From positions 46,619 through 110,618 of the forward strand of contig NZ_RAXT01000008.1 of the NCBI RefSeq assembly GCF_003611475.1: 64,000 nt of DNA. Reading direction: 5' to 3'. Shown one piece after another: positions 21,631-23,280 of the stretch; positions within the stretch are counted from its first letter, which is position 1; every line of letters begins with the position of its first letter. The notes under the pieces are model-generated. The model was not told the origin of the DNA. It searched no databases and worked only from the letters and a program-made list of their open reading frames with translations. The DNA comes from Acinetobacter rongchengensis. GTDB lineage: Bacteria; Pseudomonadota; Gammaproteobacteria; Pseudomonadales; Moraxellaceae. The translations under genes and the position numbers were made by a program.

Positions 21631-22455
21631 ATGCACATGATACCAAAGAGTAGCTATCCAAGTGATCAAAAAATTTTAAGAGTCGTCTCAATCAACGTAA
21701 ACGGCCTGCGTTCATCCGTGACTAAAGGACTGCTTGAATGGATGGAAAAATCAGATGCAGACGTCATCTGCATCCAAGAAAGTCGCATTACCCATGAGCA
21801 ATGGACAGACAAATTTAAACCCGAAGGTTGGTTTACCCATTTGTTCCCTGCTGAAAAATCAGGTTATGCAGGCACTGCGATTTATAGTCGCTTACCTTTT
21901 AAATCTGTGCAAAATGGTTTAGGTTTTGAACTTGCAGACTCACAAGGTCGTTTTATTACGGCTGAATTTGATCTAGGTTTAAACAAGCCTGTATATATTT
22001 GCTCTTTGTATTTGCCTTCGGGTTCATCTGGTGATGAAGCCCAAGCGCGTAAAGATCACTTTTTAGAAGAATATACAAAAATTTTAAAACAATGGCGTGA
22101 TGAAGATAAATCTATCATCGTCTGTGGTGACTACAACATTGTGCATAAACGCATCGATATCAAAAACTGGTCAGGCAATCAAAAGTCTTCAGGTTGTTTA
22201 CCCCATGAACGCGCATGGTTAGACCATATTTATGATGATTTAGGTTATGTCGACACATTCCGTGAAGTCCGTAAAGAAGCTGAATTATATTCTTGGTGGT
22301 CAAATCGTGGACAAGCACGCGCTAAAAATGTGGGTTGGCGTATTGATTACCAAGCTTGTTCACCTGATTGGAAAGTGCGTACGGTAAATGCATGGGTGTA
22401 TAAAGATGAATGGTATAGCGATCATGCTCCTGTAATCATTGATTATACGATATAA
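21631..22455 (+). CDS. crc: Catabolite repression control protein Crc (ExoIII-fold)
   Basis: 274 aa, endonuclease/exonuclease/phosphatase fold. Alignment by eye to Pseudomonas Crc is strong: [23 protein letters not shown] and the ERAWLD...LGYVD block; the position next to pyrE is also that of crc. In Pseudomonas, Crc acts with Hfq to block translation of catabolic mRNAs. Unlike Pseudomonas Crc, this copy keeps ExoIII catalytic residues: IQES (Glu50), CGDYN and SDHAP, where Pseudomonas has QDT, GSLY and SQHAP. Nuclease activity is therefore possible. The start at 21631 is supported by GAGG 6 nt upstream. ExoIII is the alternative call; synteny and the Crc-specific blocks favour Crc. Confidence 0.85.
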
Positions 22456-22468
22456 ATATTAAAAAACT

Positions 22469-22502
22469 GCACATTGAGTTTACAAGTGTAAACTCAATGT
22501 GC
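22469..22502. repeat. 34-bp perfect palindrome after crc
   Basis: Arms GCACATTGAGTTTACA and TGTAAACTCAATGTGC around a 2-bp centre. On the minus strand it is followed by T6 and could act as a terminator in that direction, but no minus-strand gene needs one. On the plus strand there is no T-run. It could instead be a crc mRNA 3' end structure or a regulator site for the small RNA downstream. Confidence 0.75.
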
Positions 22503-22546
22503 GTCAAAATCTCACAAAACTTGTCGTGTTATCTTATATTCTCTTC

Positions 22547-22735
22547 ATGCAAATAAGAGCATTATAGCTTCACGGCACAGGGACATTGTCAGGATGACAG
22601 CAAAAGGATAGGACGCCGTAGGATGAAAGGAAATAAATATTTTTATATTTGTTTTCCAAGGATGTGACATTGGACGTTGTACTGAGACCCGCATAATCAG
22701 GATGATTTGATGCGGGCTTTCTCTTTTTTAAATTA
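22547..22735 (+). ncRNA. Candidate CsrA/RsmA-sequestering small RNA (CsrB/RsmZ type)
   Basis: Between 22581 and 22702 there are nine GGA trinucleotides (starts 22581, 22592, 22606, 22611, 22621, 22629, 22660, 22672, 22700), seven as AGGA, far above the one or two expected by chance. TGTC-AGGAT-GACA (22587-22599) puts the motif in a hairpin loop. A Rho-independent terminator follows (CCCGCAT...ATGCGGG, about 22688-22716, with CTTTCTCTTTTTT after) whose apical stem-loop is AATC-AGGAT-GATT. That layout matches RsmY/Z/X and CsrB RNAs. There is no open frame. The 5' end is uncertain; possible -10 elements at 22535-22540 (TATATT) or near 22562. Confidence 0.78.
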
Positions 22736-22932
22736 TCCTTTCTAAAAAACTCATTTCCAATATCTTGAGTTATTTCTTCTAGTGTATTTATTTCAAATTT
22801 AAACTCAAAATATGAAAGCTTTATGACAAAAGCTAGATTGCTTAAAATATACTACTCAAACATATACATTTTTCATTGGCAATTTTGCTATCCTTTCAGT
22901 CAAATCAGATAATTAAATGCTTAGGTTTAAAC

Positions 22933-23280
22933 ATGCTTAAAATTTATGGAATCAAAAACTGCAACTCTATGAAAAAGGCTTTTGATCTACTGACTGAACT
23001 GGGTTTGAGTTATGAGTTTCATGACTATAAAAAACAAGGGATTGATGCTGAAACAATCAAAGTTTGGTTAAAACAGATTCCGCAAGATATTCTTTTAAAT
23101 AAAAAAGGAACAACTTGGAAAAAACTCAGCGAACAAGAACAGCAGCTTGCCCTTTCAAGCCAAGAAGAATTGATTAAAGCGTTGACCACACACAGCAGCT
23201 TAATTAAACGCCCAGTGATCGATCAAGCGGGGCAATTTGTAGTAGGTTTTGATGAAGACAAAATCAAAGCTTTAAAATAA
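22933..23280 (+). CDS. ArsC/Spx/YffB-family protein
   Basis: 115 aa from the ATG at 22933. The frame opens earlier but the family N-terminus MLKIYGIKNCNSMKKAFDLL begins here. Thioredoxin-like fold with a single active-site cysteine in the KNCNSMKKA motif, followed by YEFHDYKKQGI and a C-terminal TTHSSLIKRPVI segment containing the family's conserved Arg-Pro. YffB/Spx relatives are annotated as arsenate reductase-related; arsenate reduction is not established for YffB proteins and no ars genes are nearby. I call it a YffB-like protein of undefined redox role. Confidence 0.83.
   Translation: MLKIYGIKNCNSMKKAFDLLTELGLSYEFHDYKKQGIDAETIKVWLKQIPQDILLNKKGTTWKKLSEQEQQLALSSQEELIKALTTHSSLIKRPVIDQAGQFVVGFDEDKIKALK

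Follow-up and report, generated by a model that had tools for sequence, protein, structure and literature searches.

The region at 22572-22727 (+) of the window, the 64,000-nt stretch of Acinetobacter rongchengensis DNA that was analysed here, is probably a Csr/Rsm-type untranslated RNA that would titrate CsrA, with a FabR/DesT-type palindrome putatively controlling its promoter beside a broken GacA box. The RNA part of this explanation is surer than the promoter part: that the element is a real, conserved RNA of the Csr/Rsm type is the most likely reading. CsrB and CsrC, and likewise RsmX, RsmY and RsmZ, titrate CsrA/RsmA; multiple GGA motifs, AGGAT-type hairpin loops and an intrinsic terminator are the features of this family. 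The predicted RNA resembles CsrB/CsrC of the enterics and RsmX/Y/Z of Pseudomonas in its multiple GGA, its AGGAT-type loops, its short transcript, predicted to be untranslated, its intrinsic terminator and the presence of CsrA and GacA-like genes. Unlike them, however, it lies below their Rfam thresholds, and its GacA box is broken in the main Acinetobacter clade.

The GGA-rich stretch and its neighbours

Nine GGA in 122 bp had been described in the initial annotation, and our recount of all starts (22581, 22592, 22606, 22611, 22621, 22629, 22660, 22672 and 22700, the stretch running from 22581 to 22702) agreed with it. The two AGGAT hairpin loops described there, one at 22587-22599 and one in the terminator at 22688-22716 with a T-rich run behind it, were also found. 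Its proposed extent of 22547-22735 begins about 25 nt upstream of the 5′ end that we predict, 22572. The features of the region are as follows.

21631-22455 (+): crc-like gene of the exodeoxyribonuclease III family, on the upstream side; NCBIfam TIGR00633 with 230.8 bits, exceeding the cut-off
22477-22494 (no strand): 18-bp palindrome AGTTTACAAGTGTAAACT, candidate operator of the FabR/DesT type; 12/16 to AGTGAACA-NN-TGTTCACT, fully symmetrical
22499-22516 (+): place of the GacA box of the relatives; right half CTCACA (22511-22516) only, left half 0/6, right half 5/6
22560-22565 (+): −10-like hexamer CATTAT; a GCATTAT-like block is conserved in the alignment, the start site is predicted
22572-22727 (+): predicted CsrB/RsmZ-like RNA of about 150-155 nt with nine GGA, from GGA layout, conservation and structure counts
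22572-22619 (+): 5′ domain closed by ACGGC (22572-22576) and GCCGT (22615-22619), which pair; inside lie the first AGGAT hairpin and additional GGA
22587-22599 (+): hairpin TGTC-AGGAT-GACA, TGTCAGGATGACA, with covariation in 24 sequences
22629-22657 (+): variable A+T-rich hairpin, from the fold; its GGA is not conserved and its sequence differs among species
22667-22680 (+): ACATTGGACGTTGT, candidate small GGA hairpin, drawn by eye and absent from the consensus structure prediction
22688-22730 (+): intrinsic terminator whose stem-loop, CCCGCATAATCAGGATGATTTGATGCGGG (22688-22716), has an AGGAT loop and is followed by a T-rich tail
22933-23280 (+): gene of the ArsC/Spx family on the downstream side, some 200 nt past the terminator; TIGR01617 above cut-off

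The gene at 21631-22455 is taken to be crc, as in the initial annotation; Crc belongs to the exodeoxyribonuclease-III family. No ORF of at least 60 aa is listed within 22456-22875, in keeping with the earlier statement that the element has no protein product. No conserved −35 was seen in the promoter alignment of the Acinetobacter loci.

A 150-nt scan of the plus strand (63,850 positions) reached its maximum, nine GGA, at this stretch: 29 of the positions had nine, all of them starting at 22553-22581, and the minus-strand maximum was six. Nine GGA were attained in 22 of 2000 dinucleotide shuffles and in 2 of 2000 mononucleotide shuffles. By itself, composition is a moderate argument for a GGA-rich RNA. 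The shuffles show that it accounts for part of the GGA density, and so conservation must bear the case; it is a strong argument that the GGA-rich stretch is real. The single-sequence fold was modest (z −1.85), with 6 of 200 shuffles equally stable.

The search with CsrB/RsmX/Y/Z models that the initial annotation had proposed gave nothing at threshold: the Rfam models CsrB, CsrC, RsmX, RsmY and PrrB_RsmZ had no match at the gathering threshold in the whole window, nor any at E up to 10. The best Rfam score, that of rsmX with 23.9 bits (threshold 56, E 0.6), fell on a relative in genus g12. Elsewhere in the window, a manganese riboswitch (yybP-ykoY) was identified at 1566-1722 (−) with 60.8 bits, above the Rfam threshold.

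Conservation and predicted structure in Acinetobacter

A search with a 201-base DNA query detected the element in 93 of the 99 Acinetobacter genomes, with a single strong copy in each and an identity of 75-100%, the match of 100% being the window's own genome. We examined and aligned 49 of these 93 loci, the 30 best and 19 weaker ones. The RNA lies downstream of crc in all 49, and the ArsC/Spx-family gene lies downstream of the RNA in all 49. In one locus (L034/L121) an ORF of 236 aa on the opposite strand stands between crc and the RNA with its palindrome. A. baumannii, A. nosocomialis and A. baylyi all possess the RNA, and in A. baylyi DSM 14961 crc, RNA and ArsC gene are on the same strand. 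Among the six genomes with no DNA match, G031 and G076 have diverged copies found by model R1 and G029 is 65% complete; in the remaining G013, G030 and G097 neither the DNA query nor R1 finds the RNA, although crc is open there. The crc-linked RNA was likewise not found in the Acinetobacter genome G125.

The initial annotation had named loss of the GGA loops in related species as evidence against its reading. Eight of the nine GGA proved to be kept in 48 or 49 of the 49 loci downstream of crc (seven in all 49, GGA 22660 in 48), and the ninth, GGA 22629 in the variable hairpin, in two. In alignment A1, which holds 44 of the 49 sequences (the near-duplicates L017, L018, L019, L027 and L030 were omitted), the two AGGAT hairpins and the terminator hardly vary, GGACGTT of 22667-22680 is invariant, and the A+T-rich middle hairpin drifts. 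The six core pairs of the terminator are formed in 44 of 44 sequences. A consensus terminator scan of the window did not list the plus-strand terminator at 22688-22730; its sole site was on the minus strand.

Within the genus, two-sided changes were seen in 3 of 23 predicted pairs of the 44 sequences, and the covariation term was slight (−0.45). With other genera added (A3, 24 sequences), 92.9% of the cells are paired and 8 of 19 pairs have two-sided changes. These come to 36 cells; shuffles, which ignore relatedness, gave a mean of 9.3, and slid structures no more than 9. In the number of pair types, A3 did not exceed the shuffles (310/500). L115, L087, L092 and L116, the rows that diverge most, are misaligned in the terminator, which lowers its paired percentage. 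In the first AGGAT hairpin, three of four pairs have two-sided changes and every lettered cell is paired, the outer pair being gapped in 7 of 24 sequences; across the relatives its letters shift from TGTC/GACA to GGCA/TGCC with the pairing intact. All four counted pairs of the 5′ domain are 100% paired in the 24 sequences, three being invariant and one being G-C in 19 and A-U in 5. The element thus has what marks a Csr/Rsm RNA, many conserved GGA, some of them in loops, the loops staying fixed while the stems covary.

This pattern bears on the idea of a small RNA that depends on Hfq and acts by base pairing, with GGA motifs that serve for anti-Shine-Dalgarno pairing or are incidental. A broad network of Hfq-bound small RNAs exists in A. 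baumannii, according to the parts of PMC12802169 available to us, but no such RNA is named in these parts, and GGA in fixed loops on covarying stems are the Csr pattern. We consider an Hfq-dependent RNA very unlikely.

Relatives in other Moraxellaceae and GacA boxes

At E up to 0.1, model R1 gave RNA matches in 40 of 119 Moraxellaceae genomes, which belong to 7 of the 16 genera; four matches lie above E 0.005, and at least one of the four (L111) is a chance match by eye. Ten weak model matches (L085, L086, L111, L284, L285, L287, L288, L290, L293 and L297) looked by eye like gene ends or interiors and were not counted as relatives. The weak model matches L283, L286, L289, L294 and L296 are rich in GGA and carry a box of the GacA type, and L110 is GGA-rich.

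The neighbourhood varies among genera. In genus g10 all four loci have crc upstream, in g8 it is within the fetched flank of one of four copies, and the g12 copies have no crc within their fetched flanks. The initial annotation's placement after crc holds for all 49 Acinetobacter loci examined, with an ORF intervening in one; for several copies of other genera the fetched flanks do not show it. The copies in g8 and g12 also have no ArsC/Spx-family gene in their fetched flanks. A cis-acting leader of that gene, which follows the RNA in 49 of 49 Acinetobacter loci, would have to do without it there, and in Acinetobacter some 200 nt and a strong terminator separate the two; we regard a leader as extremely unlikely.

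In genus g5, the R1 matches of G117, G128 and G138 adjoin csrA and are convergent with it, and model R2 adds G102. There, L107, L108, L109 and L281 are GGA-rich RNA modules, apparently in tandem pairs, adjoining csrA and convergent with it. A GGA-rich RNA next to the gene of the protein that it would titrate offers circumstantial but telling support for the Csr reading. The genome of the window encodes CsrA in one copy (91.8 bits), and the gene was found in 111 of the 119 Moraxellaceae. A GacA-like protein was found in 30 of the 32 genomes queried, and the window's genome has a GacA-like gene. The g11 genome G149 has neither CsrA nor GacA and is not among the R1 matches.

Upstream of the copies outside the main Acinetobacter clade we found TGTAAG-N6-CTTACA, which we take to be the GacA box of the Pseudomonas literature: it matches at 10-11 of 12 positions, at −75/−74, in 17 of the 19 copies with upstream sequence (L092 has none and stands outside the 19). 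The second modules L107 and L108 of g5 have no GacA box. A match of at least 10/12 arose anywhere in 53 of 4000 shuffled upstream regions. The main clade differs. In 49 of 49 loci the right half matches at 4-6 of 6 positions and the left half at 0-2 of 6, in a register (−75/−74) chosen by the better right half; at the window's RNA, with 0/6 on the left, the box is not intact.

Exact GacA boxes (TGTAMG-N6-CTTACA) were found by pattern scan at six other places of the window's genome.

G000:C9:1580: exact GacA box
G000:C112:103033: exact GacA box
G000:C175:22180: exact GacA box
G000:C183:54385: exact GacA box
G000:C217:10273: exact GacA box
G000:C232:2044: exact GacA box

All six (L350, L351 and L353-L356) have at least four GGA on one side within a distance of about 270 nt, and in five of them the count is five or more; several end with an AGGAT-loop terminator. 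Over ten genomes, 32 of 36 box sites were readable, and at least four GGA were counted in 26 of them (30% at random positions) and at least five in 21 (10% at random positions). A DNA query with one GacA-box RNA of G010 had matches in 63 of the 99 genomes, frequently more than one per genome, many of these matches being short and covering the terminator end only. These six loci are candidate sister Rsm RNAs. Given such GacA-box, GGA-rich loci elsewhere, the crc-linked RNA is one among several candidates, namely the one with the broken box. Neither these further candidates nor the palindrome at 22477-22494 had appeared in the initial annotation.

Some related observations were made by eye. Behind the GacA box of L354 (G000), L358 (G013), L364 (G030) and L369 (G125) lies a different type of transcript with a similar terminator loop, TTTTGGGAGAGA. 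The weak own-genome R1 matches L088 and L093 were ruled out as sister RNAs; L093 (G000:C35:50197) has a hairpin, TTAGTCAGGATGACTAA, just 5′ of a GGA Shine-Dalgarno sequence and a signal-peptide-like protein start, and is a candidate CsrA-target leader. G013 and G030, where the crc-linked RNA was not found, carry several GacA-box, GGA-rich loci.

It could be argued that the crc-linked RNA is an ordinary GacA-driven RNA of the RsmZ type, that GacA acts through the remaining right half-site, and that the palindrome is unrelated to it. The right half kept in all 49 loci, the box in 17 of 19 relatives and the wide presence of GacA-like genes speak for this. But a left half at 0-2 of 6 throughout the clade stands against exact boxes at six other places of the same genome, and the spacing between palindrome and RNA is fixed. 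We judge this explanation unlikely. Whatever drives it, the CsrB/RsmZ-type identity proposed in the initial annotation appears to be the best reading, with conserved GGA in covarying hairpins, promoter-like and terminator elements, CsrA and GacA-like genes, and relatives with near-consensus GacA boxes.

Two RsmA-regulating RNAs have been predicted in silico in A. baylyi ADP1 (Fakhry 2017, PMC5568370), and the available part of that paper attributes further predicted CsrA-binding RNAs of A. baylyi to Kulkarni 2006; in the available part of PMC12442408, a CsrB-like RNA is credited to the 2006 paper. As far as these texts go, the ADP1 predictions concern the same genus and the same claimed role as the crc-linked RNA. 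The orientations given for the Fakhry 2017 loci (-><-<- and <--><-), however, misfit the one-strand crc-RNA-ArsC order of A. baylyi DSM 14961. Term searches in the available parts of the A. baumannii papers PMC3976366, PMC5538643, PMC11472050, PMC12802169, PMC8567240 and PMC10269061 gave no such RNA. Our literature search, over main texts and with few subscription journals covered, found no characterised CsrA antagonist for Acinetobacter. It is stated in the consulted part of PMC12802169 that csrA is essential for growth of A. baumannii on rich media.

The upstream palindrome and its possible regulator

The palindrome AGTGAACA-NN-TGTTCACT is found at −96 (37 loci) or −97 (12 loci) from the RNA in 49 of 49 main-clade loci, scoring 11-16 of 16, and at least 14/16 in 42 of them; one A. 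baumannii record has 16/16 and another 14/16. Against this fixed spacing, the distance to the crc stop spans 101-432 nt in 48 loci. The site of the window is weak, as 60 of 4000 shuffled upstream regions attain 12/16 somewhere. We dropped the palindrome as a variant of the GacA/UvrY box; the GacA boxes of the distant relatives sit 21 nt further down.

The palindrome might instead be a hairpin that ends crc transcripts, the GGA stretch being the 3′ tail of crc mRNA or a processing product. In the window a 15-bp stem starts 14 nt past the crc stop, and a T-rich tail follows the palindrome in 12 of 49 loci. Such a tail is missing in the other 37, though, and we set aside a plus-strand crc terminator, the sole site in the terminator scan being on the minus strand. 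The palindrome moreover stays with the RNA where crc is 300-432 nt off (two loci) or behind an ORF, the RNA has its own conserved −10-like block, and in other genera there are copies whose fetched flanks lack crc. This origin appears highly improbable.

A scan of 13 Acinetobacter genomes with at most two mismatches gave 44 palindrome sites, versus 7 for the reversed-pattern control. Of these 44, 11 were at the RNA, 17 between a FabR/DesT-like gene and its divergent reductase-like gene, 2 before a fatty-acid desaturase gene (2 of 13 genomes), and 14 at genes of other or unnamed kind. The 11 sites at the RNA are not independent evidence, because most of the 13 genomes were chosen for a good RNA site. 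The 17 sites are spread over 8 of 13 genomes, with one to three in each, and the other five have no palindrome at a FabR/DesT-like gene at this limit. In the window's genome there are four sites, all at a FabR/DesT-like gene or a desaturase, while its RNA site and that of G062, with just 12/16, fall below the two-mismatch limit.

The regulator is a TetR-family protein whose sole NCBIfam match at 1e-8 is FabR, with 143.5 bits (just below the cut-off of 151), and whose sole PDB relative at 1e-5 is DesT (E 1.2e-27). Its divergent neighbour has ferredoxin and FAD domains, and a regulator gene divergent from a reductase-like gene is shared with the FabR/DesT systems. The E. coli FabR motif, as printed in the part of PMC4273635 consulted, agrees with our palindrome at 13/16, and the operators of E. 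coli FabR and P. aeruginosa DesT are of equal palindrome length. At genus level, then, the palindrome agrees with a published operator and recurs at regulator and desaturase genes, and the sequences make its putative assignment as a FabR/DesT operator firm for the genus. For the window's genome the assignment is weaker, since the RNA site, although symmetrical, reaches 12/16. A whole-word literature search that combined Acinetobacter with DesT, TetR and desaturase, covering few subscription journals, had no match.

The literature targets of FabR/DesT operators, in the texts available, are fatty-acid genes, whereas here the site precedes a predicted regulatory RNA. In the accessible portion of PMC3462791, fabA of P. 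aeruginosa is described as having a DesT site that lies upstream of a putative activator site, the effect of DesT being modest; the layout of palindrome and GacA-box place resembles this one.

We consider the following mechanism probable, its RNA part more so than its promoter part. The RNA would be transcribed from about 22572, and the FabR/DesT-like repressor would bind the palindrome, centred near −87. With saturated acyl groups in excess, the repressor would release its site and the RNA would be made, drawing CsrA from its mRNA targets. GacA-driven sister RNAs encoded elsewhere in this genome would contribute the classical signal. We give about an even chance to the further reading that a FabR/DesT-type acyl-CoA sensor has replaced GacA at the most conserved Csr decoy RNA of Acinetobacter, so that the supply of membrane lipids or fatty acids would set free CsrA directly, with the separate GacA-box RNAs retaining the classical input. 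Repression was chosen because the named relatives are repressors: as the available part of PMC4273635 has it, DesT senses the acyl-CoA pool and represses desB, and the targets of Shewanella FabR are lowered by unsaturated and raised by saturated fatty acids. A site at −87 is unusual for blocking RNA polymerase, which is a point against direct repression; alternatively, the regulator may block or help a remaining activator.

Short organic acids and fatty-acid synthesis are linked to Csr systems indirectly, through BarA/UvrY and LetA/LetS. If the proposed wiring is true, lipid supply would likely tune the CsrA switch by a direct input at the promoter. What would be new is this wiring; we do not claim the first Csr RNA with a FabR/DesT site. 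For Acinetobacter, the RNA is a precise, genus-wide candidate CsrA antagonist, and its alignment defines an RNA family with no Rfam model at threshold.

At two further loci, L142 (G064) and L145 (G082), a FabR/DesT-type palindrome was seen between a histidine-kinase-like ORF and the same unnamed ORF.
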